Part shown: positions 7,080 through 47,900 of the stretch, piece by piece | Layout: each line of letters starts with the position of its first letter | Position numbering within the stretch: position 1 is the first letter of the stretch | Assembly: GCA_964035545.1 (NCBI GenBank) | Contig: OZ037773.1 | Coordinates: forward strand, 1,122,751-1,186,750 | Length of the DNA: 64,000 nt | Source of the DNA: Bugula neritina | Lineage: Eukaryota; Bryozoa; Gymnolaemata; Cheilostomatida; Bugulidae | Direction: 5' to 3' | Notes under the pieces: model-generated | What the model was told of the DNA's origin: nothing | What the model saw: the letters and a program-made list of their open reading frames with translations, nothing else | The model's database searches: none | Translations under genes and position numbers: made by a program

Positions 7080-9160
7080 TGGGCGTACATTCCGGCTTCG
7101 AACGGACCATGCGCCTTTGATATGGCTGTGTCGACGGGCGGAACCATCAAGCCAAGTAGCGCGCTGGCTAGAGATCCTGACAGAGTTTTCTTATTGAATT
7201 GAACATCGACCCGGTAAGAAACACGGTATTGCCGATGGACTCAGCCGCCGCCAGGCAGATGGGTGTAAGCAGTGCCAGAACATTGAGCGCAGGGATGGTG
7301 GACCCCCTCGCTCGGACGTTGAAGCGCAGTTGGGGAAAGCGGGTGTATACAGCTGGGAAGAAGGGCAACTCCTGTCCAAATCTTCTAACGAAGCTGTTAA
7401 CAACCTTCACGCAAACCCCACGTTGCTCAGGAACGTCAGGGAGCTATGTCGGCTCCAGGCAACGCTACCAGGGGTAGTAGCTGACCTAGTTCGGGCCAAG
7501 AAGGAGGGACGGTGGCCGAGTGAGGCCGAACAGCGGGTGAAGAGCGCAGAGTTTAAGTACTTCTGTGACCACTGGGACTCCCTCCGGTTCAACCTTGATG
7601 GGCTGCTAACGATAACGTTGGCAGCCGGCACCAATTGCAGGGAACGAGAGAGGGTAGTCTGCCCATCCGCTCTGAGGCGGGAGTTTATCTGGGACACCCA
7701 TAAGCAAGCTCACGCGGGAGCTAGCCGGGTGATTAGGTGTCTTCAACTCCAGTGTTTTTGGCCCGGTATGACCCGGGATGTCCGACTCCGGGGGCGGAAG
7801 TGCGAGGTATGCCAAGCTAGCGAGCATAGCCGCCCCACTGAGACCGCAGGGAGGTGTCGCCTCCATGCCGGTCGTCCGTGGCAGGTAGTTGCTGTAGATC
7901 TGGTAGGCCCCATGCCCACAACAGCAAGAGGTAATAGCTGGATACTGGTACTAACTGACCATTTCACGCGGTGAGCTGATGCACTGGCTATTCCAGATGC
8001 GTCGACCCCCTTGGTGGCCAGAGCCTTGGATCAGCAGGTGTGCTGCTACTTCGGCTTGCCGGAGCAGATACACTCTGATCAAGGCGCCCAGTTTCAGTCG
8101 CAACTTATGAGCGATCTCTGTAAAATGTGGGGGTAAACCAGAGTCGGACGACCCCGTATCACGCGCAAGGGAACGGGGTTGTGGAGCGGAACAACCGAAT
8201 GCTAGGGGACTCTCTGAGAAGCCTGCTTATCGGTAGGAGCCAAGAAGAGTGGGACTTGGTGTTGCCGCAGATCATGCGAGCGTACCGTAGTACCCCTCAC
8301 TCCAGTACACTGGAGACCCCTAATTTTCTCATGCTGGGGAGAGAAACAAGGGTTCCTGAGCACGTAACCTATCATGTTCCGACTCCCGAGAGCAACGTCC
8401 ACGATTACGTGGACAAGCTCGTAAAACGCATGGGGACAACTCACGAGGTGCTACGTGAGCAGCAATGGCAGGTCAGAAGTGGTGACTCTGACGACCCCCC
8501 CCCCCCTTATACAAGGTGGGAGACTGGGTCTGGATGACCAGTCATCGCCGGCGGCGCGGACAGGCAGCCAAGTTGCAGCCGAAGTTTGTAGGCCCCTACT
8601 GCGTGATTGAGGTGATGCCAAATCACACCTATAAAGTGGAACGGTCTGGACAAGTGTCAGTCCAGAACGAAGCACGGCTGAAGCCTCATTGGGCGAGTCC
8701 TGATGCAGCAGGTCAAGCACCTCCCCTCTTAGAGCCCGCTAGACGCCCTCTTATGAGGGGGCGAGGCATGGCGTATATAGAGGTGGAGGAGACACTGCAA
8801 GATCAGGACGGGGCGGCTGACGCGCCGCCTGACCCGCCCTGGCCTCCTCCACCCCAGGAGGAGGTGGCCGACACACCAGAAGACCTGTCTGAGCCGGCCC
8901 CACCACCTGTGGAGCCGGTCGACAGGCCCATCGCCCCGAATGAGATGGAAATTCCTCATAATCATGAGGAAGAGGCAGCTGAGGGAGGACCACCCGTACT
9001 GGTGGACCCCCCCAGACTGGCGACACCACCCGTGGTGCAAGAGTCACCAGTCGCAGCAAATTCCCCGGTACCGTTGGACCGCAGCCAACGTACCAGGGCG
9101 CCACCATCTTATTTACGAGACTTCTTGTGTGACTTGGTCGACATGCACAGTATTCTGTAG
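7080..9160 (+). pseudogene. pol relic continued: RNase H end and integrase with GPY/F domain
   Basis: RNase H resumes at 7080 with the conserved TDH block. Integrase follows. A zinc-binding histidine pair region lies near 7697-7720 with CEVC at 7801-7812. The first core Asp is near 7893, the second in HSDQG near 8077, and the Glu at 8184-8186, giving DD35E spacing. A stop breaks the frame at 7972-7974 and a one-base shift occurs in the G run near 8130. A third frame from about 8516 holds a GPY/F-type C-terminal module (KFVGPY... near 8580-8690) and a proline- and acid-rich tail ending at 9160. No chromodomain was recognised. Confidence 0.9.
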
Positions 9161-25851: not shown

Positions 25852-27565
25852 ATGGAGAAATACTCAGTTCAGGTAGACCTACACAGAAGCAGAGTGAAAG
25901 CTCTTACTGCCATGCTAGCTTTCACTTGGGTGGTATTACTAAGTTTGATAGCTTGCAATGTCATCTTCTGGCAGGCTGGCCGACTGGGCACTTGCTCTCC
26001 TGTGTCATCCTCAATAGCCAATAACACTGCAGCTGTAAGTATCTGGTAACTGGACAAATCTTAATTATTTATTAACTATTTGAATAATTAATGACTCAGG
26101 GCAAATGATGATCATTTCTTAAGCTTGACTTCAAATTTGAAATAATTTTAACATGCATATATCTTATTTCAAATGTTCTAAGAGATCTAAATTTATGCAA
26201 ATTTTTTTTGTTTTGCCATCCTACAAAATATTATATTTTTATGACTGTATTGGAATCGCTATAATAATTACTATAGGGCCTATTAAGTTGCGATTACATA
26301 TGTTTAAATGTGATTAAAAATTTTTTTTTTCTTTTTATTGCTTTAGAATGTTGAATTAGGGCAACAACTCCAGATAAAGGCAGAAGTGATAAGCAGGGTA
26401 AAGAGGGGAGATGACGATGATGACCGAGAAGTAAATACCTATATAGATTACTTTCTATTTCACGCTTTAAGCTTTCTCTTTCTTTTGCGTAATCGCTTTA
26501 AATTCTAATGAGATTTAAAAATTCTGAAACATTAATTGCAGTGTTGTTACTCAATTCCAGGGCACCTGTTAACTGAACTAAAATACTAATGTTGACATGA
26601 TTAATTTGCACATTCTTATAAGGACACTGAATAGTCCTGAGATATTATTAATTGACCTCCATTATTCAAAGAAGAAAAACCATTAAGAAAATTATTCTGT
26701 AGTAATATGGGTTGGCCTATATAGTGTCAACATGCTGGAATTTTAATTGTTATGTTGAAAGATCGCATTACACTAATGTATTATGATATTTATATACTAA
26801 TATGTAATTTTTTATTGGCAGATGACACACCTTTATTTTGAATGCTAGCTGTTTGAATACAACTTAAAAAACTGTTTTACAAGCATTATTTTGTTTTAAT
26901 TACATTAAGCTGCGCATAGCATTACTCATAGCAGTGGGTGCATCACTCCAGCCTGTGCTCTCAAAAAACCTTTCAGCAACTGAGGTCTGCAAGCAAGTTT
27001 GACTCAAAAATTGACAATAAGGCCCCAGGCTATGCCAATGATCATTATATGGCAGCTAGAGAGGAATTTAGATTGGAGAGGAATTCATCATGCAGCTGAT
27101 GTACTTGTACAACCACTTGGCATAACTTCCATGTGCCGCCCTGTAAACCTTGGAAGATATATTCAACATGTCAACATAACGCTTTCTGGCCCATGAATAA
27201 ATTAGTCATTTTTTTGCCTTCACTTGAAATTTTCTTCCATTCAGCTAAAAATTAGAATCAGTTTTTATTCACATTGTATTTCTCATAAGATAGATATACT
27301 ACTAGAGCAAAGGGAGTAGCTTTTATTTGTGTCTGGTAACTGTTCAAGATATTTTCTTTAGATCTTTGGAACTCATGGGTTTTGTCGAATTGTCCAACAC
27401 ACTTCCTGTAGTCTCTTCAGAAGAAAGAGATCTGAAGATGACAGAAAGGTATATGTATGCACTCCGTATGTCAATGAAAAATCTGCCGCAGGAGCTATGA
27501 AAGTTGGAAATGGAGTTGGGGGAGTGAGCTGCTACCCCCGTGCTATGATTGTTTGCGGAGAATAA
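25852..27565 (+). CDS. Type II membrane, furin-site, cysteine-rich protein 1 (unrecognised family)
   Basis: Three exons, all joined in phase 0: 25852-26034, 26347-26430, 27362-27565, giving 156 residues. Residues 1-16 are a short charged N-terminus. Residues about 17-40 form one hydrophobic segment (MLAFTWVVLLSLIACNVIFW) without a cleavable-signal look, so a type II (N-in) topology is likely. Exon 2 carries RVKR followed by GDDDDDRE, a furin-type site. Exon 3 encodes the C-terminal domain: C-x7-C, then basic RRKR, then VYVCTPY, a glycine-rich run, and SCYPRAMIVCGE with a second C-x7-C ending two residues before the stop. Five cysteines, an odd number, suggest a disulfide-linked dimer. Paralogues lie at 29263-31481 and 41842-43853. 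I infer a membrane-tethered precursor of a released ligand; I cannot match it to a known family. An ATG-less upstream extension is open but not shared with paralogues. Confidence 0.75.
26905..27196. other. Unexplained GC-richer island in intron 2 of cysteine-rich gene 1
   Basis: A CTTTCAG acceptor-like site at about 26970-26976 is followed by an in-phase stretch of about 40 codons with a stop near 27096. A second frame stays open from 26999 to 27196. Neither frame has counterparts in the two paralogues. It could be an alternative exon, a poison exon or a transposon scrap. Confidence 0.25.
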
Positions 27566-28032
27566 GAATAGGGCAGCAGCTGACAGTTGCTTTTTATATG
27601 ACTGAATATTATTTATAAATAGCTGATTTCTCCTCTTTTTATACATAGGTTATTTTTTCTATTTTTGCCGATTTCCATGTTTCCTAAACTTTTTGTTTTG
27701 TTAAATAAATAGCCTCAAAAATTTAACCATATTATTTTGCAGTATCTCTACACTATATCTCTTTTCTATCTCTATTTTATATATCACTATTTCACATCTA
27801 TCCTATAACTTATGTCCCATTTCTGTTCTACACTATATCTATATCAAATAGCTATTCTATTTATATTATTTCTATATCTATTCTATCTCTATTCTGTATC
27901 TAAATCATATATTTGTTTTATTCTATTAGCACATACAACTTCATTTCTTGAGTTAAAACGTTTCACAAGGTGAGGCAACTGCTATAATTCAGACTCTACA
28001 CACTAATTAAAGGTTTCAAAATCTTCTAATTA
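27566..28032. other. Intergenic, pyrimidine-rich AT sequence
   Basis: TATCTCTATT/CTATATC low-complexity sequence occupies 27740-27900. No coding sequence seen; the 3' UTR of the preceding gene probably lies at the start. Confidence 0.4.
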
Positions 28033-28267
28033 AAAACACTCACGAAAGTTTATAGTCGTTATCTCTGTGAGAAATCCCTGATGGATAGGGTTTTTGTTAA
28101 AGCAAGATAAGGACTTAATTTAAATGAGGCACAGGAGCAACTATGACTGGATGCTCTTCCTAACATCACCAATGGCCTTTGTCCGGGCTCGAACCTATGA
28201 CCCCGTGTTTACTAGGCAAACTCGCTCTAACCCCTAGGGCCTAGACCATGACAGCTCCCTCTTCAAC
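28033..28267 (-). mobile_element. tRNA-derived SINE with 12-bp target duplication
   Basis: On the minus strand the element opens with a tRNA-like head: TCATGGTCTAGG...GGTTAGAGC (A-box-like) and GGTTCGAGCCC (B box). A body with GTTAGGAAGAGCATCCAGTC follows, then a tail ending in TTTATAGTCGTT... The 12-base duplication ATCTTCTAATTA flanks it at 28021-28032 and 28268-28279. The same family is at 33740-33965 (plus) and 32240-32365 (minus). Confidence 0.88.
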
Positions 28268-28660
28268 ATCTTCTAATTAGATAAGTTTTTAAAGAAATAG
28301 ACAGCTCATTCTCAAATTAATGATTTCCAACTCAACTCACTTCGTTCTAACTGTAAAACAGCTAGACAAAACATCTAGTAAAAAAGGTATGCAAAACATA
28401 GAGCTGAGAGCATAACTCCTAATCAATATGTAGTGTAGTAAGTTAATAGTTATCTTTTTATAGCACTAGTGTGAGTTGAGTGTGTAACTTCAAGTTAAGG
28501 CTGTGTTTTGAACTTGAAGATATATAGCAAAATAAATGCAATATCATGAGATGAACCCATATTTGTTATGTAAATTTATTTGCTTATCACAAACAATAGC
28601 ATCAGCAAAACAACATGCACCTTAGCATTAAACCTGATGCAAGAAGGCTGTTTATATATT

Positions 28661-29044
<384 letters not shown>

Positions 29045-29262
29045 CAAAGTCAGTATGTCCAACTAAATCAAACCTGCGGAAAATTTATAAAAATAGCTCA
29101 AAAATGAAAAACCCTGTCATTGAATTATATTTAATCGACTGCGAAAAATTCTATTCAGTTATATGAGAGTTAATGTCTTTCAAAAAATAATTATAGTAGC
29201 ACTTTTGTACTGCTATAAATGAATGAATAGAATTAAAAAAATTAGTATAAAAGCCTATAATT

Positions 29263-31481
29263 CTACGCAGCACATGTAACTACAGCTCGGGGTATGCAGG
29301 CCCCACCCCCAACTATGTTGTTATTTTCAGTGTCATAGTTTACTGTCAACTTTTCGTCATTGTCCGCTAGAGATAAAGAAGGGCTGCAGGTAAACACTTC
29401 CTCTGGATCATCACTCTTCTGATCAGTAGATCTCCTTTTTCTGTATCCACACGCTGTTTCATAAACAACTCGGCAGGAGCGGAATGAGTTTGCCGTCTGC
29501 ATAAAAAAAGAAAAGTTTTGGCTTTCACAATACCTACTTCAATTAAGATTAGAAAGAGGTTACGAGCCAATAGTTTTCTGACATGTTAGTCTGCGGTAGT
29601 ACAAGTTCAAGGTAAAGAAGTTTTCCAAACTAAATCCAAGCAAAGTGCAGTGTAATATAAATAACAATCTATAAAATATAATTTCAAACGTAAGTTTACT
29701 CTTTACAACAACCGAAACAAGCATTTAAACTTGACACTGATAGTTAAATTAACAACACACGCAACTCCAAACTTCAAATGTCACATTATGATTGAACTGG
29801 TGCAATTTAAAAACAGACAATTTTCATTTTAAGATCAAATTTCATTGAAAATAGTTTTCAAGAAAACTGCAAGTTGACTTTTAAAAGCGTTAATCGTAAG
29901 ATGTGATATCAGAGTTTAGTTTTTGCCAGACAACTTCTGCATTATACATGTATTTCATATATACTATAAGGAATCTCACTCACCCCCCTGTCATCTTTAT
30001 CATCTCCTCTCTTTACTCTTTCCAGTATCCTTTGACCTTCTTCAAACTTATTTCTCAATTCATCTTTCTAAAAAATTGAAACCAATTCAAAAATCTTGAG
30101 AAACACATGATAATTGTAAGAATTAGATTATATGGCTGTAGCATACTAATATTATAATTGAAGAATGACTGCTTTTACCTGCAACATACTATAGTTGCAT
30201 ACTTGCTGCTTTTACCTACAGCATAGCAGTTTTAGTCTTTGCAGTAACGCTATTGTGCAAAGTATGCAAATAAAATGAGACATAAGTGCAGTTTGCCCTT
30301 ATTTTCTTTAAATATTGCCAGTTTTCTATCAACAGTATTATATTGCAGTGGTCAAATTTAGGGGGTTATAAAGGGTAGCCCTTTCTTTTTTCCTTGAGGT
30401 GCCATAAATTTAACAGTATACCCTCACCATACTACCCCACTGCATTCAATAATATATGTGGAATAAGTTATTAAATGGTGAAACTCTATGTAATGTCAAA
30501 AGCCAAAGCACACAGGCTATTATAGCCAATGCCATTAAATTCACTTTAACAGCTTCACAAATAAACAGTTTCTCCATAAACTCACCAAGTTAATTTTTTG
30601 GTTCTATGTGTGTCATTCATGCTTGCTCAGTTTGTAAAAATGTGAAGTTGTAACACAATTAATTATTTTCACCAAATGAGTATCAATACAATAATTCATT
30701 TTCTTTGTAAAAGGACTCAACAATAAACCATTTATTGCTTATAGAGATGCAATACAAACTAACTATATTTATGTTTCGTATTTTAGAACTGTCACTTATT
30801 CACTTGATCCTATTCATTTTTCTAGTTGAGTTTAGCCCTACACTTTATTAAAATTGCATGCAGTCTGAAATAAGTGACAAATTCAAATAACATGTGATTG
30901 CCCAGGAAGGTAATTTACTTTCCCCACACCCTACTTCATTTGATTGAGGAACATGTCTCCAATGCCATCTTAAGTACTAGGGTGATTATCTATTTTATTT
31001 TCAAGATTCCTCCATCATTCTTTCTAGACTCTGACCACATAATAGAGTGATAAATCTTATTCAAAGAATTTAGAGCCCAGGCTAAGCCTAAACAACCAGG
31101 TGTTGGTTTGCGGTAAATAAAATCCCCATTTTTTGCAACTTATTCTGAAGGCAACTTAAATTTCCTAATATTTTATTAAATTCATTAGAACAATGCAAAA
31201 TATTAAAAACTTAGTTTACAGAGATTGCTATCACTAACATACGAGTAGTCCACAGGAATGTGTGCTACTGTATTCTACACCATACTCACAGCTTTGTTGG
31301 TGACCAGTCTCGTTGGTGCTAGAGATATTTCCTGGCTGGAATTTGTCAAGCGCCAGTACAAATGTATGTTGAAGCCTACTAGGCAAAGTAAAGCTATCCA
31401 AGTAGCAGCTAATGCTAAATTAAGTCTTTTGACTTTCTGTTTATAGGCTTCAATTTGTGCAGAGTCTTTCTCCAAGTCCAT
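29263..31481 (-). CDS. Type II membrane, furin-site, cysteine-rich protein 2 (unrecognised family)
   Basis: Three phase-0 exons on the minus strand: 31290-31481, 29984-30067, 29263-29496, giving 169 residues. Residues about 20-43 form the membrane segment (LALAATWIALLCLVGFNIHL), clearly similar to gene 1 (TWIALL against TWVVLL, then FNI against CNV). Exon 2 is exactly 84 bp as in gene 1 and encodes ERVKRGDDKDDRG, again a furin-type site followed by acids. Exon 3 has SC-x7-C with CRVVYETAC, then RKRRS, then VFTCSPS, an acidic spacer, and GGGACIPRAVVTCAA at the end. The cysteine spacing equals gene 1: C-x7-C, C, C-x7-C. The spacer before the last pair is longer. Head-to-head with the SLC46 relic at 32014. 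Function inferred as for gene 1. Confidence 0.78.
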
Positions 31482-32013
31482 CCTCTGTTCTTTGATCTCT
31501 GTATGGACTGACTCCAGAGATATGAAGCTATGCTATTGCAGCCTTTCAACTTTTATTTGCAGTCATATACCTTTCAGTTTAGGACATCATTATCATTATT
31601 TTTACATACTAATTGCAGTGATCTAGGGGTGGAGGTAACCACTAGTAGTAGCTAAAGCTATCTAGCTAGTTTAATGGGCGACGGCACACCTTAATTGATT
31701 GCTTCCAATCTAGCTACAGATTTTAATAGGCAATGTAAAGACACGCAGTAGTATTGCATTGTCACAGCACTTGGAGTGCTATAATTAGTTGCCAAAGGCT
31801 ATAATTAACACAATAAAACTAATAGTATGACCTCAAATATATACAGTAGCTATTAACAACTTTTCAGCTGTATACTTGAATTTGTTTTGCCAAAAGTAAT
31901 ACCAGAAGTAATAACTTAAATCTTCTTCTATTCAATTGGTGCACGTATTATGTTGTTTTAAGATTTGCATTCGGTCTGCTTGCAATGTAACAGAACAGTC
32001 ACTGAGGATCAAT

Positions 32014-32114
32014 ATGACAAAACAGAATATGCATAAGCTGTTAGACCTTTGGCCAGCCAACAAACTGAGGAGATGCAAGCAGAGCCTGGCATATGGTGGC
32101 CGCATGTATGGTAT
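32014..32114 (-). pseudogene. Relic of a third SLC46-like transporter copy (exon 2 fragment)
   Basis: The plus strand GGCCAGCCAACAAACTGAGG, continuing with AGATGCAAGCAGAGCC and CATATGGTGG...GCATGTATGGTA, matches the corresponding part of exon 2 of the SLC46-like genes (35670-35760 and 39500-39590), with an internal deletion near GTGGC/CGCATG. No intact frame and no other exon is visible nearby. It has the same orientation as the intact genes. Confidence 0.75.
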
Positions 32115-32239
32115 AGAGTTAATTGGCAAAGAAAGAAATTTAAGCAAGTGATGTGAAGACTTGATAGATCCCTCAACAACTTGAATGTTTTGTGTTCATT
32201 TAAAATCTTCATCTTTGTGTTAGGAATTCTCAAGTGAGC

Positions 32240-32365
32240 CGAGAAGTATGTTGTGGCACAGAAACAATTGTGACCAGCTGCTCTTCCTGACATCATTACT
32301 AGCCCTGCCAAGATTCGAACTCTTGACCTGAGCTCTAACCAATTGACTGTTCCTATAAGAGCCAT
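32240..32365 (-). mobile_element. Truncated tRNA-derived SINE
   Basis: Reverse complement shows AATTGGTTAGAGCTCAGGTC (tRNA-head A-box side), GAGTTCGAATCTTGG (B box) and GATGTCAGGAAGAGCAGCTG, the diverged body of the family at 28033 and 33740. The 3' end is missing and the head carries deletions. Confidence 0.65.
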
Positions 32366-32459
32366 CTGCGCTCAAATGAAAAAATTGCAAAAACTGTCAT
32401 TAATTGAGATCATGTTAGTTTTAGCAATTCAGTTTGTTTGTCTAGGCTTATATACTTGT

Positions 32460-33365
32460 ATATGCTCCAAAAATACCTCCATGTGCTATATACATCAATC
32501 ATATATATGTTATATATTTTTAATATGTAATATATTATGCTTTCATATCATATATTTTATGCATATAATATGTGTAATATACTATATACTTTCATATGTT
32601 CTATTCTATGACATTTTATGTTATATAGTATATGCATAATATTATAATAATTGTTTGAACTACAAGTCATTATTAAAACACTCATGCTCAGGTTTTACTA
32701 CAGTAAGACTTTCTTTAGATTCCATAATATAGTTAATTTTAATAAAGTCTAAAGTAATTATGTGCAGTTAACAGTATGCAGGGTGTAGTGTGCAGTGTTT
32801 AACATGCAGTGTGTAAAAGTGTACTTTGTAGAGTCTATAATGTGTAGCCTGTAGTGTTTAGCGTATATTGTGTAGTGTGTAGTGTATAGTGTGTAGTGTA
32901 TAGTGTGTAGTGTGTAGTGTGTAGTGTGTAGTGTGTAATGTGTAGTGTGTAGTGTGTAGTGTGTAGTGTGTAGCGTGTAGTGTGTAGTGTGTAGCCTGTA
33001 GTGTGTAGCGTGTAGGGTGTAGTGTGTAGTGTGTAGTGTGTAGTGTGTAGTGTGTAGTGTGTAGTGTGTAGTGTGTAGTGTGTAGTGTGTAGTGTGTAGT
33101 GTGTAGTGTGTAGTGTGTAGTGTGTAGTGTGTAGTGTGTAGTGTGTAGTGTGTAGTGTCCGGTGTGTAGTGTCCGGTGTGTAGTGTGCAGTGTTTAACAT
33201 GCAGTGTGTAGTGTGTACTTTGTAGAGTCTATAATGTGCAGCCTGTAGTGTGTAGTGTGCAATGTTTACTGTACAGTGTTTAGTGTGTACTAGGTAGTGT
33301 ATAATGTGTAGCCTGTAGTGTGTACTTGGAGGTGTTTAACATGCAGTGTGTAGTGTGTAGGCTGT
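32460..33365. repeat. AT-rich tract followed by 7-bp satellite (GTGTAGT)n
   Basis: 32460-32640 is TATATGTTATAT-type low-complexity sequence. From about 32847 to 33160 the unit GTGTAGT repeats almost perfectly about 45 times, flanked by degenerate arms (32770-32846, 33160-33365) with longer units such as GTGCAGTGTTTAACATGCA that occur on both sides. The paired outer blocks (32786-32835, 33184-33240) look like a duplication of the array edge. Confidence 0.9.
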
Positions 33366-33739
33366 AGATAATCAAAGTTTTATGATATCATGAGTGACTA
33401 AAGATTTCTAAAATGATAAAGCCTCTCTATTTGAAAGCGTTGAGCAACTTTTATATGCATCTAATAAAGTCGCAGGATGCTTGTGTCTCAAGTATTCAAA
33501 GCTTCATGTAAAAAAATTAAAACAATAATAAATATTTAATATACAATAACTATGGTTTTCACATTTAAATAATTATAAAGTGACTAGCTACGGAATAGAG
33601 TTGCACTCAAAAATGAGATTTAGAAAGTTGATTGAATGCACCCACAAGTTTATCCATGACCCCTAGCAACTTATACCATGATAGCTACCAGTTGCTAGAT
33701 TAAATCTAAGTTATTAAATTCATTAATTACCACTAATAG

Positions 33740-33965
33740 AGGGAGCAGTCGTGGTCTAGGGGTTAGAGCTTTTGCTTTGGAAGGAGAAAGTCATGGGTTC
33801 GAGCCCAACAAAAACTGTTGGTGATGTTAGGAAGAGCATCCAGTCATAGTTTCTCTTGTGCCCCATCTGAATAAGTCCTTAGCCAGATTTAACAAAAATC
33901 CTTTTCTATCAGGGGTTTCTCATAGAGATAGGGACTATAAATTTTCATGAGGTTTTGAGTTACTA
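33740..33965 (+). mobile_element. tRNA-derived SINE
   Basis: GGAGCAGTCGTGGTCTAGGG then GTTAGAGC form the A-box side and GGGTTCGAGCCC the B box. The body has GTTAGGAAGAGCATCCAGTC and the tail TCTCATAGAGATAGGGACT then ATAAATTTTC. It aligns along its whole length, inverted, with 28033-28267. No clear target duplication found. Confidence 0.85.
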
Positions 33966-34283
33966 CAAGTAACTGTTTTCCTCACTATATAGCTACTGTG
34001 TGCTACATTATATACTCCCGTACTAAAGATCCGTTGTCAGTAACACCTGAAGTATATTAGATGTTGTGAAATTAAAATAAAGAGCATCAAGAACAGTTTG
34101 TTTTGACAATTTTTATTGTAGCACCTTTCAAAGCTTTAAAACATATTTTGAAAGTATATTTCGTAGAAAGAAAATATAAAAAAGTTACAGCTACAAAAAC
34201 TATCTGGCTAAAAAATATAAAAAATAATGTAAGTATGTAGGGCATGTGTTAGAGCTCAACCCTGCTAATTGGTAGACCTAAAG
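33966..34283. other. 3' flank of SLC46-like gene A
   Basis: No gene. On the minus strand this should be the 3' UTR of the transporter at 34284-36692. It is AT-rich, with no feature I can single out. Confidence 0.4.
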
Positions 34284-36692
34284 CTAGAGATTAGTGTTCT
34301 GTAATTTGTTGAGGTAAATGAAGGCAATCATTGCAAAAATATACATAGTAGAGCCTATGTCAAAAAACAGGCCTGGTGCTACAGGTAAAGTGGCGGTGTA
34401 TAGGTATTTATATATTACAGTGACTACTGCACCAGTTATAGTCTGTAGTATAGCGACGTAGGAAAACACATTCCCAAGTTCACTTTTGTCTACCAGACTT
34501 ATTTGTATGGAACGGTTGACTGCAAAAAATACTGATTGCATCCCATAAAAAGTGGCACCAATCCAAATACTGTAAGGTATGGAGTCAATCGGTATAATTA
34601 ACAGTGCAATGGACATGCTGGCAGATGCCACAAGACCTAAGCGGGGCTGGTCTAGTTTTAAGAATTTTTTGAAAACCCAAATAATAATTGGCCCCCCAAC
34701 TACTTTTATCACATATCCATATGTATTGTACAGAGAGTAAAGAGTCAACGACATTTCTTTCTCTTTTATGAAATACAGGAAGCCAAGAGAATGAGGTCCG
34801 CTGACAGCTGTGAAAGCCAACAAGTAAATTACAAAACATAAGTTTAAGGAGAGGCGCGCGTTTCCCTCTCGCTTTCTAAAAACACATTTAATGGCATCTA
34901 GCATATGATTGAGGCCAATCACATCGCGCCATGTGTACTTCCTGTCTGATTTCACGGTGATGTCAGTGACACATATTAATACAACAGGAAGAGGAAGTAG
35001 TGTAAGTGCCGAGCTGATGTACATCATATTAGCTAAACCTAAGTTGTCTATGATTGGTCCATTAATCAAATATCCTATCATAGCGCCAGCAAGAAATGTT
35101 CCTTCGGTAATGGCCATCGACATGGTCCGGTTTTCTGCTGTTGAAGTGAGTGCGATGTAGCTAAAACTTGACATCAGAACCTGTAGTGCAGGAACTCAGA
35201 ATTACAACATGGTCTAATCGTAACTTTGACTTTGTTCAATATAACTAATCAAAAAACAATTAGCTGCACCTGGAATAACATCTAGACCAACTCAAATTTG
35301 GTCTTAGCATAGTATCTAATAAAATACCCTAATCTCACTAATTTACTCCAATCAGATTTAGCCCAATCGTTTGAAGGACAAACAATTAAATTGGCAGAAA
35401 TTGTTTTTAAGCTTTGGAATATGTTAAAATCGTAGGAATTGATATAATTTTTTTTATCAACCTTTAAAGAAATTTTTTTGTAAATAAGCTATAGCTATAT
35501 TTGTTTTTCTACTTTTTAAAAAAGAATATATAATAATTTATTTCAAACAATAATAAATCTCACATACTTAGTTTTAAGATGGTTTAAAAAATAATTTAAA
35601 CATATATACCTACTAACCATAGAATATGAGCCAAGAAAACTTAGAAGAACAGAGTATCCAAGTACTGAGATCATTGGCCAGTCAACAAACTGAGGAGTTG
35701 CAAGCAGAGCCAGGTATATGGTGGCAACAGCACTACCAACACATGGCAGCATGTATGGTAGCTTATGACCAATCCTGTCACAGTAAGAACTTAGCATGAG
35801 GTTCACTATCACACAGAGTGGAAGGTAGGTGAGGACGTGATAGTTACCCCAAACAGCTACCTGGTCCTAAATTGCAAAACCATAAATATTGCATATAGTT
35901 TATATTTCTTATATACGAAAGATTTCTAAGATCTACAAAATTAAATCATATTTTATTTGCAATAATCTTACTCTGAGATTTTCTAAGAGTGATTCAAATA
36001 AGGATTGTCATGATTTATAAGTACTGATCTGAGTCAGTATAGTCATGAGTTATAAGTTGTAATGTGGGTCAGTATAGTCATGAGTCATAAGTACTAATGT
36101 GGGTCAGTATAGTCATGAGTCATAAGTACTAATGCGAGTCAGTATAGTCATGAGTCATAAGTACTAATCTGAGTCAGTATTGTCATGAGTCATAAGTACT
36201 AATGCGAGTCAGTATAGTCATGAGTCATAGGTACTCAGTTTGTATGAGAACTAAGCACAATAAAGTTTATCATGACGCTGGCTGGTTTGATTGACACATA
36301 TGAAATCTATTATGGTTAATGTGTTTTTGTGAGTTTCTGCTGCATAAACATGCCAATTGAAGAACTAACGCTGTGTAACGACAAACCTGCAGTTCTGGAT
36401 GAAGGACAGAGAAATCAGGATCCGCACACTGCGTCTGGTTTTTGTACTGGAGGTAGCATATCTTGTTGAAAAGCACAGCATCCAAACATATCAAGTTTAC
36501 AGCATATGGGATGAAGAAGAGCAGGTTGCAGACGTACACAGGATACGGAGATGGAGAGAAATTACAGAACAGACTTTTACCCACTGTATACTGTGTCCCT
36601 TCAAACTCTATGATGCTTTCCATGTTACTAGATAGTTTGTTGTTATAATCTACTTTTACCAGTTTTTCATTTGCTGGTTTCTGAGCAGACAT
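34284..36692 (-). CDS. SLC46-like major facilitator transporter, copy A
   Basis: Member of the major facilitator superfamily, nearest in my reading to SLC46 (proton-coupled folate transporter and relatives), which move solutes with protons across plasma or lysosomal membranes. Exons (minus): 36387-36692, 35618-35866, 34284-35180, phase 0 throughout, 483 residues. Exon 1 has a short cytosolic N-terminus (MSAQKPANE...), TM1 near residues 48-75 and a luminal Cys-bearing loop (NKICYLQYKNQTQCADPD). Exon 2 carries the MFS loop motif SSYCDRIGHKLPYMLP after TM2. Exon 3 encodes the remaining TMs and a central loop (DITVKSDRKYTWRDV). Exons 2 and 3 have exactly the same lengths as in copy B (249 and 897 bp). 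Start chosen because copy B also begins MS-x-Q. Substrate cannot be told. Confidence 0.87.
36011..36240. repeat. 35-bp minisatellite in intron 1 of copy A
   Basis: About six units of CAGTATAGTCATGAGTCATA plus AGTACTAATGTGGGT, 35-bp period (CAGTATAG at 36035, 36070 and onward). Minor unit differences (TGTGGGT, TGCGAGT, TCTGAGT). Confidence 0.92.
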
Positions 36693-38429
36693 TGCTAAAA
36701 TGTAGGGCAATGAAACAATAAGCATTGGACAAACTATGTATGCTTTCCTATATGCTAAAAACAGTGAAAACAGACAATTTAGCAAATTAGTCAAGAGCTT
36801 ATAGTTATAGCTCTTACCATATATTGTATGATGCAAGATGTCTTAAAAATAAACTCACATGACCAAAAGTTGAAAGTCGATTTGCACCAACTAGCAAAGT
36901 TCAAACGAAAGAATGACAGAACTTACTGGCAGGGTGACTACACGTTGCTTATTCGTCTTTCTGTAGCAAAAGCTAACCAAATATCCATGCAAGTATTTGC
37001 AGCTACTTATAGTGTTTTATATATATGATGAAATAATTTAGAAAAGATGCTTGCAAGAAGCTGAGTAAGTCAAAGCAGCTAGTTTCTAACTAAAATATAT
37101 CACCATTATAATCAGCTTCTGTATAACTAAAGGCTGCTACTGCCTGATAAAGTTTCATGTTATAAACTTTGATATTGGTTGCTGATGATAACACAAGATA
37201 AACACTTTAATCATCATTGTAATGTGAGGGGAGCTTTTATTGAATAAAATAGGCAACATTTCATCCTGGTTTGCTATATATAAATCGCAATTATTTTGCT
37301 AGAAATTTCAAAAAAACTGACTAAAACAATATTAAATTTGTCTAAAGTTTTAGTAAGGTAAAGTTCTTGTTTGACCCAAACATGGAAGCTCAATACGTTT
37401 TGCAAGATTAGAAGATTTTAACTTACTAATTCTAATAAACATAGTGCTTTGTAACGGGTAAAAAATAAAGCTGTTCTACTTGCAGGCTCTGTAAGTTAAC
37501 TAAAAACAAAGGCTAACTTGAATTGAGAACTAACTAAAACCATGAAAACTAAAAGCTCAAAATGTGTTGAACAGAAAGAGCTTAAACTCAATAAAAAATC
37601 TGAAGTTACCAAATGCTTTTAGTTTATACATAGCCTTTTTATTTGAACATCAACAGTAAATTTGCAATTGCTATCATAAATATCATAGTTACAGACCAAG
37701 TACTATATTGTAAATTAGTAGGCCATTTTAAATTTAAGATTAAACACCGAAACCTTGATGATGCATAACATAATAAAATGACAATATAGCTGCATTTCGT
37801 ACAATTTGTTATACCATATTCTAGATAAAGTAGCTGGTAATATATCCTAAGTAGCATAAAATGTCGAAAAGAAATAGTTGTGCTTCGGAAATTTAATTGT
37901 CGGTTGTATGGTTATCTACAAGTTTATATCTTGAATAATTTTTAATATAATATCATGTTTATGTGTGTGTTTTGTGTGTGTTTTGTGTGTGTTGTGTGTG
38001 TTGTGTGTGTTGTGTGTGCGCGTGTGTGCGCTTGTGTTGCGTGTGTGCGCGTGTGTGCGCGTGTGTGCGCGTGTGTGTGCGTGTGTGCGTGTGTGTGCGT
38101 GTAATATGATGATGAGGATATGTTCTGCAGCAAATCAAAATATTTGTTCTCTCATACCAAATAATTAGGCCTTCAATTAAAATGTGTCCAAAGTTTGTCG
38201 GTTGATAATTTGAATTTATACTTTTAGTGCAAAAAAAGGGCACAGTTGGCATTTAAAATTTATTTTCGTTTTTTAAAGTATAGTCATAGCAAAAATAATT
38301 CTCTATTATAAGTAGTAAAACATATTTAAAAAATAATGATGTATTACAAAATTGACAGAAAAAAGTTATTAGCATTGAAATATTTCAAAACCTATAAAAC
38401 CAAGAGAATACCGTGTAAGGAGGCTAGGG
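36693..38429. other. Spacer between the two transporter genes, with GT/GC microsatellite
   Basis: No gene recognised. A compound microsatellite of TGTGTG, TTGTGTGTG and CGCGTGTGTG units occupies 37963-38102. The rest is AT-rich. The sequence just left of 38430 should be the 3' UTR of copy B. Confidence 0.6.
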
Positions 38430-40383
38430 TCAAGCACATGTATTTTTCAACCTCATTAAACACAAAAAGACTATCATGACTAACACGAACAGTGCCGAGC
38501 AGACGTCTAAATACAGTCCCGACGAAAAGGTCACAGTTGCGGCATAAAAAGATCTGAAAGCAATTGTGGCAATGGCACCAACAACCGTTTCGAGAATTGC
38601 ATCCACCCCAAAAAGTTTTCCTAACTCATCCTTATTCACAAAACTTATCTGTAAAGATCGGGTGATAGCAAAAAATACTGATTGAAACCCCCAAAATGTA
38701 GCACCAATCCAAATGCTGTATGGTATAGCGTCAATGGGGATGATCAAATACGCTATAGACATCTCGCTTGCAGCTACAAGGCCTAAAGTCAAGTGGTTTG
38801 GCTTGAAAAATTTTTCAATAACCCAAACAAGAAGTGGCCCTCCAAAAACTTTCATGGCAAGTCCATAAGTGTTAAACACAGAGTAAAGTGTCAAACTCAA
38901 CTCTTTCTCTTTAACAAAATAAAGGAAACCAAGAGTGAGTACGCCAGAAATTGCCGAAAAGCCTAGAATGTAGATGACAAAACATAAGTTTAAAGCAAGC
39001 CGACTGTTTCCTTTTCGCTTTCGAAAAGCACACTTGAATGAGTCCGTCAGATGGCTGAGGCCAATCACATCGCGCCATGTGTATTTCCTGTCTGATTTCA
39101 CGGTGATGTCAGTGAAACATATTAATACAACAGGAAGAGGAAGTAGTGTGAGTGCTGAATTAATGTACATCATGTTAGCTAAACCTAAGTTGTCTATGAT
39201 TGGTCCATTGATCAAGCTTCCTATCATAGCGCCAGCAAGAAATGTTCCTTCAGTAATGGCCATTGATATGGTCCGCTTCTCTTTTGTAGATGCTAATCCA
39301 ACGTAGCTGAAACTTGACATCAGAACCTAAATGAGAAAATAAATTGGCAGGTTAGTGCAAAGGCCAATGAATGTATACAGCATTATTTTGTCAGTGAGTA
39401 AAAGATAACATCCATAATAGTTGCACAGTATGCAAACACTTACCATTGCATATGATCCAAAAATGCTGTATAAAACAGAGTATCCAAGTACTGTAGTCAT
39501 TGGCCAGTTAATAAACCGAGGAGTTGCAAGCAGAGCCAGGAATATAGTCGCAACAGCATTACCAACACATGGCAGCATGTATGGTAGCTTATGACCAATC
39601 CTGTCACAGTAGGAACTTAGCATGAGGTTCACTATCACACAGAGTGGAAGGTAGGTGAGGACGTGATAGTTACCCCAAACAGCTACCTGGTCCTATAAAC
39701 AAAATTGTTCCATAAAAAGTGATACAGGGTTGATAAAATTTTCTAACTCAACTTTACTGCTATGCTAAGCTAAACCAAAGCAAAATTGGCATCTTATGTT
39801 TTGCACCATTAAATGAAGACATAATTTTGCTTCAAATTGAACTTTTTTATATCATTTGATTTTAAAATAATTCTCGTTTCATATCATTAACAATAGAAAC
39901 TGTAACTCAGACCAAATTCTAAAAGTTGAATCAATACTAGGCTTCAGCAATACTAGAGCCAAGACTTGCGTCACAACAAACCTGCAGTTCTGGATGAAGG
40001 ACAGAGAAATCAGGATCTGCACACTGCGTCTGGTTTTTGTACTGGAAGTAGCATATCTTGTTGAAAAGCACAGCATCCAAACATATCAAGTTTACAGCAC
40101 AAGGAAGGAAGAAGAGCAAGTTGCAGACATACACAGGATATGGAGATGGAGAGAAGTTACAGAACAGACTTTTACCCACTGTATACTGCGTCCCTTCAAA
40201 CTCTATGATGTTTTCGTCATCTTCAGTTGTACTCGAGTCAGCTTCCACTTTTCCCATTGCTTCTCTGTTTGCTACCTGAAGTGTCTCTCGGTCTGCTACC
40301 TGAACTGTGTTTACGTCTGCTACCTGAACTGTGTTTACGTCTGCTACCTGAACCTTGTTTACGTCTGCTACTTGGACCGACAT
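38430..40383 (-). CDS. SLC46-like major facilitator transporter, copy B
   Basis: Tandem paralogue of copy A with the same three-exon, phase-0 layout: 39982-40383, 39444-39692, 38430-39326; 515 residues. Exon 1 from IIEFEGTQYTVGKSLFCNF onward and exon 2 are nearly identical to A; exon 3 is more diverged after the central loop (YTWRDVIGLSHL). The MFS loop motif YCDRIGHKLP is kept. The N-terminal tail differs from A: it consists of about five eight-residue repeats (QVADVNTV type) encoded by a 24-bp minisatellite, so the cytosolic tail is about 30 residues longer. The mix of near-identical 5' exons and diverged 3' exon suggests gene conversion over exons 1-2. Confidence 0.87.
40256..40383 (-). 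repeat. 24-bp coding minisatellite in transporter copy B
   Basis: Five tandem 24-bp units (plus strand GCTACCTGAACTGTGTTTAC plus GTCT) encode QVADVN(T/K)V-type octapeptides directly after the initiator Met; the last two units diverge to QVADRETL and QVANREAM. In frame, so copy-number change would alter tail length without breaking the gene. Confidence 0.9.
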
Positions 40384-41841
40384 CTGATGCAGCCGTTGAG
40401 TCTCTTAACAATCAAGCACCAATAAAATTATCTGCCGAACCATGATTTCACCAGGAAATGCCAACATCTGATAAGGTTTGTTGAAGACAGTGTAAAATGA
40501 TGTCGTGCGGTCTTGCAATGACATATCTACCCTTAGCCTCTTTAGAACTCTTACTGTATTTTCTCAACATGTAACTTAATGCGTCATTTTTTATATTATC
40601 CTGAAAGAGTTGATAACCATCTCAATATCCCACAGCATTGATCATGTGTTTATTTAGAGAATGATTTCAAATTAAACAAACTGATACTTCCTGCTAGTTT
40701 TGAATTTTTAGCATTGTTCAAACAATAAAATAATATAAAGTTTTGAAAAAGCATTATGAATAAATAAAGTAACATGCAGAATGCTTTTTAGCTAAACAAG
40801 TAGATATTTCACATTTCAAGTGTAAAACAGAACTTAATTCGTACTCACTTTTTCATGCACCAGGTGTGAAGTGGAAATTTTTTTCTGGCTAATCAGTAAC
40901 CAGGATACAACAGAGTATGTGCAGCTACTGTCTTAATGTGACTTCTTAAACACCCATGATGAAGAGATACCAGGTACACTTGTATATCCACTATGAAACG
41001 CGCAGCATAGCACAAGGCAGGCAGTGTGTCCTTGAGGTTGCATACATAGGCTAAATTCCTATATCCATGATACCATCGGAAGTAACTCACACCATTCCAC
41101 AATATGGAATGAAAGGAAGTAGAATGTAGTATATCTCCGTATCTATTATTGCTAACTTATCAAAACCTTCAAATAGTGGCCATGCATTATTATGTATGTT
41201 ATCTTACTAGATGGATGTTTATATAACGTTGAGATAAGATGAGTTTGCTATCTCCTCTACCCTCTGCATAGGACTTCACATTCATACACATAATGTTGTT
41301 GCTCAGGCTAAATTTATTCATACTATTCTATCACTGGTAATTTACAAAGAAATAATTGAACCTACATTGCATCTAGGAACACATTTTGTAAAGCAGAAAT
41401 ACTTGTAGTTACTTGAGAAAATTATATCAGCATTGCATAGGTTTTATTAGTGTTTTAGACAAATAACTATAATATATTAAAATGTGCACCAATAACATAA
41501 TGATGCATTTCCCTAATTGTATCACTACAAACATAGCATGTTATCGGCTAGGTACTTACTGCACTACCTTCGTGTGAACAGAAGTCTAACCTACAATTTA
41601 GTCTCAAGTAATTATTTGCTCACAAAACAGATGCACAGGAGATTAATGAGATTTTGCAGTGAATGTACATTAGGGTGTGAATATGGAATAGAGATTATAT
41701 CCCGGGATTAAATGGATTAACAACCATTAAATACCCAAGTTCTGCCAGCCACAAGTTGTGGATTCAGTCATTCACAGAGGCATGTTTACATAACATAGGA
41801 GGCAGTGGTTACTCTAGGAAATGTAAATAGAAAAGACAAAA
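40384..41841. other. Intergenic between transporter B and cysteine-rich gene 3
   Basis: The two genes diverge here, so both promoters should lie in this 1.46 kb. No coding sequence or repeat recognised; no clear TATA box. Confidence 0.4.
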
Positions 41842-43853
41842 ATGGGAGAGGAGCAGCAAAATAAACTGAGTTCTGTAAATAGCAATGTTGAGAAGTTGAA
41901 ATATGCTGCAGCAGTTAGTTGCATGCTACTAACTCTATCAGTAGCACTAAATATTACACTGCTGATAAATGTTTATGGCGGATACAGCTGGGATCAGGTG
42001 AGTGAGGCTCTGTTCTATTTCAGAAATCAAGATTTTCACAAAAAAGTCAATTATGGATTTGGAAGTAGAAACCAGCCAGTAAAGCGTCGAGTTAATCCGT
42101 GACTTATATGAGAGGATAATTCTAACATCGTAGAAAGTGGTCTAGTTGGAACCCTGCTCCTGTATAACGTGTAAAGTTACATTATTAGTTCGAAAAGCAT
42201 GTAACTGCAACCCTGTAGTTACAGTTGTAGGTGGTATGATGCTTGCTAATACGGTGGTCATGATATGATCATGCTATGCATATATTATTATGATTACGAT
42301 GGAATGGAGTAGTACAGGAATGCCATTACATCAAATGAAAACCAGCATGTTCTTATAATGGTTGCTGTTTCATTCAATTAACACTGTTCCTATTGGTCGA
42401 ATGAGAAATCCATTCCCATAATGCAAAGCATGGAGACTGTTCTCAGAACAGCCTCAACAAATTTGGACCTTGCTGTAATAATGCTGCAGTGGTGAAATGC
42501 ATCAAGCAAATGAATTAAACTTATCAAATATATTATTGAAAACCATTTTTTCAGATGCAAACATGTGACAACGCTCAAGGAGATGTACCACACTTTCAGA
42601 TGTGTGCAAGAGAGAAACGAAGCACAGACAGGCTCCAGAAAAAACTTAAGTCTAGCAAAGACCTGCTTTCCTTAGAGGTTAGACTTTGTACTCCTGTCCA
42701 CCATATGTTCTCATACTGTTGAGGTAAAAAGCTGACACTAACAAGTTATATTAAAGGAATACTGTAAACAGCTGGTTGTCCAGGTTTGTCTTGCAGTGTT
42801 AATCATCTGCTCCACGAACTAAATATATGACACTCAGTAATGCGTATTTAGGCATAGACACTTTTTATTATGTTAAGTACATGCAGCTAAAATTACTCAT
42901 CATTGACTCAGGAAGTCGAATAGAAGCTCATTGGTCACAGTCCAGGTGGTGCCAGTATAGCAGCTGACTAACTGACCTAGGTAGCAGTTTAGTAGCTAAA
43001 TAACTGACCTAGGTGTCAGTATAGCAACTGACTAACTGGCCTAGGTGTCAGTATAGCAACTGACTAACTGGCCTAGGTGTCAGTATAGTAGCTGACTAAC
43101 TGACCTAGGTGTCAGTATAGTAGCTGATTAACTTAGCTAAGCCCTGGTAATAAAGACAAACAGAATTTTGTGAAAACTCTGTAAAGCAAGTAGAAATGGT
43201 AACTGCCAATGTATTTCAATTATATTACCTAATTAGAAAAAGACTCGCCCATTTTTAAATCATAAATTTGGTTAGTGCTGCTAAATTGCTGTTTAAATTT
43301 CTGAAATCTGATAATGAATAAAAAGGTCAAACTTTTGTCAACTTTTTAAAAAACTTCAGTAAACCAGGTGTAGGCACTAAACAAATATCAGATAAGCACT
43401 AAAACTTGTCCTTTTTGCATTTCCTAAAATCCAACTGTCTCACTGAAATTATTGCAGGGTGAAGCCATTAAAAGCATTGTTTGTGTAGTGAAAGTTAAAA
43501 AAGATGGATCCGGGAGGAATGATGGCCGCCGAAGAGGTAGAGGTGGAGGCGAAGTATCAACACAACTTCGAAATTGTCGACGAGTCTTTGAAATTGTCTG
43601 TGATAGCTCAAGGAATTGGCATCATCGAATGAGAGGTAAAAAACGACGAAGAAATCAGCCAATTAAAAGAGGTCTTCCAGATAATAGCCAGAATGTAAGT
43701 AACGACGATATGGTGTGTAGAAAAGTTAGTGAGGACGTTACGACACTCAATCAAAGCATTTCTGCAAGTCAAAGTAGTTCTGTGAGCAGCAGATCGAGAG
43801 CGTCGACAAGAGGTGCCACCTGCAGAAGGGTCCCCAGAGTAATTTGTGGGTAG
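41842..43853 (+). CDS. Type II membrane, furin-site, cysteine-rich protein 3 (unrecognised family)
   Basis: Three phase-0 exons: 41842-41997, 42555-42677, 43458-43853; 224 residues, longer than its paralogues. Exon 1 (52 codons) holds one membrane segment at about residues 20-45 (AAAVSCMLLTLSVALNITLL). Exon 2 encodes CAREKRSTDR, matching the R-x-K-R furin pattern, in the position where genes 1 and 2 have RVKR-GDD. Exon 3 begins with a basic, glycine/arginine-rich stretch, then NCRRVFEIVCD (C-x7-C), RGKKRRRN, DDMVCRKV, a serine-rich linker, and GATCRRVPRVICG at the stop (second C-x7-C). The five family cysteines are kept, with extra ones in exons 2 and 3. It is the most diverged member, so the middle exon rests on splice signals and phase more than on similarity. 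Confidence 0.7.
42945..43140. repeat. 32-bp minisatellite in intron 2 of cysteine-rich gene 3
   Basis: Six units of CCTAGGTGTCAGTATAGCAA plus CTGACTAACTGG with a 32-bp period (CCTAGG at 42976, 43008, 43040, 43072 and onward). Confidence 0.92.
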
Positions 43854-44976: not shown

Positions 44977-47900
44977 TCATAGCAGCATAGCATCAATAAC
45001 TGTACTAGCCGTTACCATGGTGACCTTCTCACTCCTAGGAGGTAGAATAACGAGAGCTTGCGCAGAGCACACGCTCAGCAGACGACTACTTATCTGATTT
45101 CCTGTGATGGTAGCGGAGGGCAGATGGTCACCTTCTTTCCAAGAGAGGAGAGCTCGTTGGTACTCAGGCCGTGGGTCAAGGTTTTTTATATCGGATGAAA
45201 GCTGCAACATACATTTGGTTGTCAGACCGGAGATCTCAATACTGATTATTAAGACGCTCTGAGGGAATTTTCACCAACAAAAACTAATAAATAGGGTCAT
45301 GTAAGAATACTCACCTTGACTTTCCAAAGGTCAGGCATCGGCTTGGGGTCACCCGACATGGCCCGCAGAGCAGGCAGCACAAAGAGGTTACAGGTCACAG
45401 TGGCTGACACTGGGTTGCCTGGTAACCCGAAGAACAGCTTCTTTTTCCCTTCATACACGAGAGTAGCGAATGTTGTGGGTTTCCTGTGAATTAGAGGAAA
45501 TCTAAGGTACAATTGAGAGTAAGGAGAAAGCATACAGTGCAGAGGGTATCTGCAGCTTATTGGAATAAAAGGTGTGAGTAACAGAGAGACTATCGGAATC
45601 TTCTGCAGATTGCCACACGTTATACAAACACAAGGAAATATAAATATACATGCACAGTGGAATAATGTGAACACAGGCGGGGAGAAAAACAAGTGAATGG
45701 ACAAATGTTACATGCAGACTTACAGACAGACAGGCAGACACAGTTACAAACAGATGGACAGTACAGACAGACAAACGGAAAAACAAACAGACAGATGATT
45801 GTTACCCAGGTTTCATGAAGACTCTCCCAAAATGAATGTTTGCATTGAAATCAGTCTGAAGGACTCCTTTGATTAAATCCTGTAAAATACAGATACCCTC
45901 GATAACTACAAATATCTTCAAGGCGCCAGGGGGAGCTGTTGGACAGGAAATGGAGGCTATAATGTTGACAATGTCAACTGATACTTATTTAAATTTATAA
46001 CAGTTTACAGAATTATGGCACATTGTGAACTACTTATAGAGCTACTCCATGCTGGCAAGGGTTTAATGCTTCAAAAGCCTGAATCATATGACAGACAAAA
46101 ATTCTGGCAGGTTTGAGAAAAACAACTACCCTAAATTTAAAAATGGCATTGGAATTGTTTACACGCATGAAAAGTGCTGCCATAGTTACTGATACAAATA
46201 ATGGGTGTGAAAGTGATATTCAGTTGTAAAATTATGCTTTCTTGAAATAACCCAACAAAAACACAACCCACAAGTAAAAAAAAATTAATTAAATCACAGG
46301 TTATCAGGGAAGATACAAAGTTACATCAGCCCTTCTAAAAAAAATATCAATACCCACTGGATTAGATAATCTAGCAATGTAGTTCTAGAAATTAAATTGT
46401 AATTATACTGTATTTCACTTTCATGTCAAAAACATAAAAAGTGCAGTTATTAGCATAAATATGTATATTATACCACCTTCTCTCCCATAGACACGCCCCC
46501 AGATGTCACAATAACATCACTTCCTGTGAACGCCTTGTGGAGAAGCTGCCTCAAGTCTTCTACACTGAGAGTATATACACCACATGATCATTCTTATGCG
46601 GTGGGATAGTGACATGATGTAGTAACTTTAAGGGTGAACAAACTGCCCTTCCCTTGTGCTAATTGCAGCTGTGTGAAAACTACCACTTCAGGTGTATACG
46701 TAAACCACACATGTATTTCATATTATAGGCGCAGCTTTTTCCAATAATCATTAATTTTGCGATTTAGGTTCAAAACTTTCAACTACACAGAAAATAGTAA
46801 GATTTGAGACCTTATCACTCAAATTTTGAACAGCCCTTTCAATTGAAGAATATAGTATAAGACATTTGATGAGATTTATTTATGGTAATTTATACTTATT
46901 TATAACTTGTGATGGCATGTGAATAATATAATTAACATTTTCTTACTCTTCCCCTAACGGTGCTAATGTACAAGTGAGCTCCATCAGAACTAAACAAGGA
47001 GGAGAAAACTCCTGCACAGTAAAACAACTATAGCTTACTTGTCTCTAGCAATACCGAGATCTTCAACTGGTAGCCCGTGCTCCTCCAGGAGGGTTATGAG
47101 GGTCACTCGATTACTGTCCCGTATTTTGCCGTCACCCAGTCGGCTAGCTTCTGGCTCTAGCAACTGAGAAAAAAAGAAAACAGAAATTAGGAAAATAACT
47201 ATAATTAAAATAATTTATGTTATATCTATAAAACAAATAACTTTTTTAAGCAAATTTCTGACACTATGAAACCAGGATCTCTCCATACACTACCATGTAT
47301 TGTAGCTACATGATTCCTTCTTAACAGCTATACAAATTCCTATACATAGATAATTTTTAATTATATACTAATTCACAATAATCCTTTGTAAATTACTTTA
47401 AAAAGCAGAAAATCTAATTATTGGTAATTAGTAATTAATTGGTATTATTTAGTAATTACTAAAATATACTACTCTACCACGAGTTACATATACTACTCTA
47501 CCACGAGTTACATATACTACTCTACCACGAGTTACATATACTACTCTACTACGAGTTACATCTACTACTCTACCACGAGTTACATATACTACTCTACCAC
47601 GAGTTACATATACTACGAGTTACATATACTACGAGTTACATATACTACTCTACCACGAGTTACACATACTACTCTACTACGAGTTACATATACTACTCTA
47701 CTAGGAGTTACATATACTACTCTACTACGAGTTACACATACTACTCTACTATGTGTTACATATACTACTCTACCACGAGTTACATCTACTGCTCTACCAC
47801 GAGTTACATATGCCATTCTATCAATGAGTTAGATTTACAACTCATATTGTCTGCAACCTTACTCACCTCATTTCCTGTAGACATCACGCCCACTTTGGGT

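Follow-up and report, generated by a model that had tools for sequence, protein, structure and literature searches.

Three clustered genes for predicted type II membrane precursors with a common cysteine frame and furin-type sites in Bugula neritina

Three clustered genes with a common exon plan

We analyzed a 64,000-nucleotide stretch of the genome of the bryozoan Bugula neritina (the window; assembly GCA_964035545.1, contig OZ037773.1, positions 1,122,751 to 1,186,750, forward strand), in which an initial annotation had proposed a family of three genes for small, membrane-tethered, protease-released ligands. Splicing and translation of the window yield three intact three-exon genes at 25852-27565 (+), 29263-31481 (-) and 41842-43853 (+), here called genes 1, 2 and 3; their ends coincide with those initially annotated, and gene 3 lies ~10 kb from gene 2. 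The spliced products, of 156, 169 and 224 amino acids, respectively, have no internal stops; all six introns are GT-AG and of phase 0, and the exons follow the shared plan proposed for them: membrane segment, basic cleavage site and cysteine domain. As also proposed, exon 2 has a common length of 84 base pairs (bp) in two of the genes, genes 1 and 2, compared with 123 bp in gene 3, where its donor, GTTAGA, is the strongest departure from the usual donor consensus. Candidate polyadenylation signals lie past gene 1 (AATAAA at 27704), gene 3 (AATAAA at 44071) and, on the minus strand, gene 2 (ATTAAA at 29135 and AATAAA at 28580); a ~340-base (TG)n tract occupies 28705-29045, immediately downstream of gene 2.

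Exon 1 encodes an N-terminal segment and an apparent membrane anchor, followed by a stalk in genes 1 and 2. Each protein has a single strongly hydrophobic 19-mer (mean hydropathy 1.89-2.34, with gene 1 at 2.34) and then a short stalk: in gene 1 the exon spans 25852-26034 (+) with the 19-mer at 25912-25968, in gene 2, where the exon is homologous to that of gene 1, 31290-31481 (-) and 31359-31415, and in gene 3, 41842-41997 (+) and 41911-41967. Twenty, 22 and 23 residues precede the 19-mer in genes 1, 2 and 3, respectively, and since genes 1 and 2 align locally from residues 1 and 3 onward, this long N-terminal segment is conserved between them. Hydropathy and the conserved N-terminal segment are compatible with a type II anchor with stalk, although the hydrophobic stretch may instead be a signal peptide. 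The stalks of gene 1 and gene 2 carry one N-glycosylation sequon each.

Strict RX[KR]R sites start at residues 78 and 109 in gene 1, 81 and 111 in gene 2, and 71 in gene 3. In exon 2 of gene 1 (26347-26430, +) and gene 2 (29984-30067, -), a stretch that by eye looks coil-like is followed by the first of these, RVKR-GDD (RVKR at 26395-26406 and 30008-30019), ahead of the cysteine domain, whereas in exon 2 of gene 3 (42555-42677, +) the basic site (REKR at 42609-42620) precedes the coil-like stretch, likewise recognized by eye, and reads REKR-STD. The RVKR-GDD-type site initially assigned to all three genes is thus present in genes 1 and 2 and absent from gene 3. Genome-wide, an RVKRGDD-type codon pattern has three matches in all, namely genes 1 and 2 and one SVKSGDD elsewhere. 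The acidic run after the first cleavage site, GDDDDDR in gene 1 (26395-26430, +) and GDDKDDR in gene 2 (29984-30019, -), resembles an enteropeptidase-type acidic-basic site.

Exon 3 encodes the cysteine domain, which opens and closes its cysteine frame with a C-x7-C segment. These segments are CRIVQHTSC (27383-27409) and CYPRAMIVC (27530-27556) in gene 1 (exon 27362-27565, +), CRVVYETAC (29449-29475) and CIPRAVVTC (29272-29298) in gene 2 (29263-29496, -), and CRRVFEIVC (43575-43601) and CRRVPRVIC (43821-43847) in gene 3 (43458-43853, +). Between Cys2 and Cys3 of genes 1 and 2 lies a second furin-type site, RRKR-S (RRKR at 27419-27430) and RKRR-S (RKRR at 29431-29442), respectively. The last five cysteines are residues 97, 105, 122, 146 and 154 in gene 1, 100, 108, 129, 159 and 167 in gene 2, and 133, 141, 180, 215 and 223 in gene 3, giving spacings of 7-16-23-7, 7-20-29-7 and 7-38-34-7. 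The cysteine spacing was initially described as common to the three genes; both C-x7-C spacings are constant, and the two inner gaps vary from 16 to 38. The last cysteine was said to stand one to three residues from the stop, and it is followed by two, two and one residues.

The frame is rare by several measures. Chance yields 0.033 occurrences per 64 kb (30 Markov-1 sequences) compared with five in the window: the three genes, a frame antisense to gene 2 and a frame at 48970-49155. Over 264 kb, 4 of 1027 open frames of at least 60 amino acids carry a terminal C-x7-C...C...C-x7-C (no more than three residues from the end), and the form with CRxV at the first cysteine (CRxVx4C...C...C-x7-C) occurs in three, exactly genes 1-3. 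When exon 3 of gene 3 was shuffled 200,000 times, 73 of the shuffled sequences had the frame and one had the CRxV form. Because the motif was derived from the three genes themselves, the open-frame and shuffle counts are favourable.

Paralogy and database relatives

As judged by sequence, genes 1 and 2 are clear paralogues, in agreement with the strong homology first ascribed to them. Their local alignment score was reached by none of 2000 shuffles for each of the three exons. In genome-wide searches (215.8 Mb in 295 contigs, with one to four candidates scored per search), their first exons retrieve each other at E 7.8e-4 and 8.4e-4 and their third exons at E 0.0028 and 0.0043; these searches, with two candidates scored in each, returned only the query and its counterpart at E up to 10. 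This paralogy, the exons, the hydrophobic segment, the basic sites and the cysteine frame can all be read directly from the DNA. A motif and profile scan over the 264 kb (7500 bases masked) found no fourth member, and a diverged one could escape the genome searches given the few candidates scored in each. A DNA comparison of the three gene regions gave short matches only.

The alignment of the three genes was also searched against 5.8 billion proteins. Of 2675 candidates, five rows reached E up to 1, comprising one B. neritina protein and four metagenome open frames, the latter each matching one exon of gene 1, 2 or 3. As single queries at E up to 10, gene 3 retrieved no protein among 380 candidates and gene 2 retrieved one among 35. 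No named relative outside Bugula appeared in this search, which needs shared 5-residue words, so that the absence is not proof; the genome searches covered B. neritina alone. The B. neritina protein, EB796_002385 (P0001), shares 133 of 136 residues with gene 1, spans all three exons and keeps both furin-type sites. If it stems from the AUGUSTUS annotation, as its tag suggests, it lends partial, not direct, support to the exon joins of gene 1, because the earlier B. neritina draft genome was annotated with AUGUSTUS and transcriptome hints (PMC7576161).

Among the metagenome frames, one is identical to gene 1 exon 1 at 58 of 61 residues, and P0003 to gene 2 exon 1 at 57 of 64, with loss of the stalk N-glycosylation sequon. 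P0002 is identical to gene 2 exon 3 at 70 of 77 residues and keeps the five cysteines and the RKRR site; none of its seven differences falls at a cysteine or the basic site, and six lie between Cys2 and Cys4. The fourth, P0005, is identical to gene 3 exon 1 at 45 of 50 aligned residues. Compared with 41842-42100 of the window, it diverges at the exon 1 donor with an apparent ~16-base deletion, as seen by eye from the protein alone; gene 3 may be spliced otherwise or broken there, or the contig may be faulty.

Proposed processing and comparison with known families

The predicted mature parts of genes 1 and 2 comprise 75 and 85 amino acids with predicted isoelectric points (pI) of 6.9 and 4.65, and contain five cysteines each, an odd number; the part of gene 3 that follows REKR has a net charge of +21 and a pI of 11.15. 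Because the second furin-type site sits between Cys2 and Cys3, within the cysteine domain, a two-chain product is suggested: cleavage at both sites would yield a chain of 30-31 residues with two cysteines and one of 44-55 residues with three. The constant C-x7-C spacing, together with the observation that the only long strands in two low-confidence structure models fall on these segments, suggests, as a lead only, that the segments form two paired strands closed by disulfides at both ends.

We propose the following scheme. The N-terminal anchor would tether the precursor, and a furin-type protease would cut at RVKR-GDD (genes 1 and 2) or REKR-STD (gene 3) and so free the C-terminal domain. A second cut in the Cys2-Cys3 loop would produce two chains in genes 1 and 2, and perhaps in gene 3; the two C-x7-C segments, equal in length, would pair as beta strands and, through Cys1-Cys5 and Cys2-Cys4 bonds, hold these chains together, and Cys3, left free, would link two such units, a dimer being perhaps indicated by the five cysteines of the mature products. 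From the sequence features we infer cleavage, two chains, disulfide pairing, a dimer and a signalling role with unequal confidence: secretion and cleavage are moderately likely, while signalling is our guess from the layout. The initial proposal of a membrane-tethered, protease-released ligand family survives as to a small family, the type II anchor layout, the furin-type sites and the cysteine frame; it overlooked the second site between Cys2 and Cys3. Our tentative first choice, which we rate at rather below an even chance, is a small family, so far known only from Bugula, of secreted ligand-like factors made from type II membrane precursors, with cuts and disulfide pairing as proposed. A bolder version, in which these genes represent a class of two-chain ligands that is new and restricted to bryozoans, made as type II precursors, twice cut by furin-like proteases, clamped by two C-x7-C strands of equal length, dimerized through a fifth cysteine and comprising three diverged members in one cluster, we regard as doubtful.

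Several results weigh against the scheme. Beyond the sequence itself, support from transcripts or proteins comes from a single deposited AUGUSTUS model with transcript hints, that of gene 1, and codon-usage scoring, here uninformative, does not prefer the exon 3 frame, at least one antisense frame scoring higher in all three genes. A signal peptide is an alternative reading of the hydrophobic segment: the database protein for gene 1 begins at residue 21 of our spliced model, and one source labels it 'Secreted protein'. Gene 3 fits less well than the others: its Cys2-Cys3 loop holds the polybasic KKRRRNQPIKR (43638-43670) in place of a strict RX[KR]R site, six cysteines follow its REKR site, and a profile of genes 1 and 2 fails to recover it among 4284 open frames of at least 30 amino acids over 264 kb. 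The two structure models have a mean predicted local distance difference test (pLDDT) score of 35.1 and 52.6, below useful confidence, and a Foldseek search with the second gave two rows, neither significant (best E 2.8, probability 0.09), the models being too poor for this to count.

The genes were initially not matched to the patterns of TNF, IL-17, insulin, Spaetzle or neurotrophin, and Pfam and PDB sequence searches likewise gave no accepted match. With Pfam at E up to 5, genes 1 and 2 gave five weak matches, all below cut-offs, and gene 3 none; insulin, TNF, Spaetzle, neurotrophin, IL-17 and BRICHOS are absent from the matches listed, of which HMMER filters remove most with E greater than about 0.1. 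NCBIfam, a prokaryote library, gave none for P0001 and for exon 3 of genes 2 and 3, and the PDB searches, up to E 10, gave 8 and 1 weak rows to unrelated proteins (METTL14, cohesin, SSD1). A genome-wide TNF search was silent in 14 of 14 controls and is thus uninformative.

Several known families share some of these features and differ in others. As in the insulin/relaxin superfamily, the proposed product would consist of two chains that have basic sites at their boundaries and are joined by disulfides, with the last cysteine near the C terminus. Insulins have C-x11-C in the B chain and CC-x3-C-x8-C in the A chain, a pattern that the last five cysteines of genes 1-3 do not follow; these are instead arranged as C-x7-C...C...C-x7-C, in proteins with an apparent membrane anchor, a stalk and no Pfam insulin match. 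Furin-released TNF ligands such as EDA and BAFF have the type II anchor, stalk, furin site and released C-terminal domain proposed here, but their Pfam profile, with 127 positions, is longer than the predicted mature parts of genes 1 and 2, and Pfam detects no TNF homology domain in genes 1-3. Chondromodulin, tenomodulin and other BRICHOS proteins are type II precursors, as proposed here, with a furin-type site and a C-terminal cysteine domain, but differ in the number and spacing of their cysteines, and no BRICHOS domain was found by Pfam. The family is real and, within reach of the tools used, undescribed: its architecture is of a known kind, and its sequence and cysteine frame are unmatched.

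An in silico survey of Bugula peptide hormones listed 11 precursors, six of them insulin-like (PMC4990251). The main text of that paper contains none of four short strings taken from genes 1 and 2; its figures may still list them. Among the titles listed in searches of an open-access library, none concerns the family.

Competing explanations and genomic setting

Four other explanations, taken in descending order of probability, were weighed. First, the genes may encode ligands of a known cystine-knot or beta-rich fold, such as that of Spaetzle, neurotrophin or IL-17, that have diverged too far for sequence methods to recognize them. These families have small, beta-rich cysteine domains, form dimers and in some cases undergo furin-type processing, to which the small size, furin-type sites, strands in the weak models and odd number of cysteines, which would suit a covalent dimer, correspond. 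Their cysteine spacing differs, however, as does their signal peptide from the apparent type II anchor; no family profile or sequence match emerged from Pfam, with the limits on E and filtering given above, or from the PDB, where the rows were weak and unrelated, and there was no significant fold match, the models being too poor to count. We consider this explanation unlikely.

Second, and with slightly less to commend it, anchored precursors could release an antimicrobial or anti-fouling cysteine-rich peptide. The proteins are small, cysteine-rich and diverged within one cluster, and the predicted gene 3 product is strongly basic; the predicted mature products of genes 1 and 2, however, are near neutral and acidic, not cationic overall. 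We accordingly think a defence role less probable for this pair, whereas gene 3 may still have one.

Third, genes 1 and 2 could be a genuine pair and gene 3 an unrelated gene of similar layout, which we think improbable. Scored with the full profile of genes 1 and 2, the exons of gene 3 come 27th, 28th and 200th; they reach rank 18 at best under leave-one-out profiles and rank 10 at best under gene 2 exon 3 alone, with chance-level E-values. Genome searches with the first and third exons of gene 3, the two used as queries, returned self only. Local scores against gene 1 were reached by 352, 367 and 611 of 2000 shuffles by exon and by 347 of 1000 at full length, and are not significant; against gene 2 they were reached by 7 of 2000 for exon 1, 413 of 2000 for exon 2, 21 of 2000 for exon 3 and 19 of 1000 at full length, and thus support homology only for exons 1 and 3. 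The length of exon 2 and the order of its elements also differ. On the other side, full-length global scores were reached by 0 of 1000 shuffles against gene 2 and 1 of 1000 against gene 1, the exon number and phases are the same, and gene 3 lies close to gene 2. The best evidence for membership is the cysteine frame, whose CRxV form arose in a single exon 3 shuffle and is confined to genes 1-3 among the open frames of the 264 kb. We therefore consider gene 3 a probable distant member of the family on the basis of motif, anatomy and position, not of a profile match; of its description as a more diverged relative, the frame with CRxV and the global shuffles speak in favour, and the failed profile recovery and local comparison with gene 1 against.

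The least probable is that these are membrane-anchored adhesion, recognition or matrix proteins acting at the surface, with basic runs that are incidental or serve only for trimming: the anchor, stalk and stalk sequons of genes 1 and 2 (that of gene 2 lost in P0003) would suit such a role, but these two genes have strict furin-type sites in corresponding positions, of which P0001 keeps both of gene 1 and P0002 the second of gene 2.

The surrounding window holds several further features. Two similar major-facilitator transporter genes with MFS_1 matches, at 34287-35195 and 38433-39326 (-), lie between genes 2 and 3. A gephyrin/MoeA-like gene occupies 45300-49624 (-), with a MoeA_N exon at 49280-49624 and a molybdopterin-binding match below cut-off at 45300-45707, and an exon with a Clathrin_H_link domain match lies at 60771-61127 (-). 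At 2244-7971 (+), three of four frames scanned have aspartyl protease, reverse transcriptase/RNase H and integrase zinc-binding matches; we take these pieces to be a Ty3/Gypsy-like retroelement. Three exon-like open frames at 56677-57478 (+; KCYTC..., ...CICGNSGCN...) resemble a Ly6/uPAR three-finger protein with a C-terminal hydrophobic tail; Pfam, run on the first exon only, gave no match at E 0.01.

To our knowledge, few signalling peptides have been described for bryozoans, a whole animal phylum. If genes 1-3 form a lineage-specific ligand family, they would be candidates for roles in metamorphosis, colony growth or recognition, and the predicted arrangement of two sites and two chains yields clear expectations for mass spectrometry; should they instead be a hidden member of a known fold, they would still show how far such ligands can diverge.

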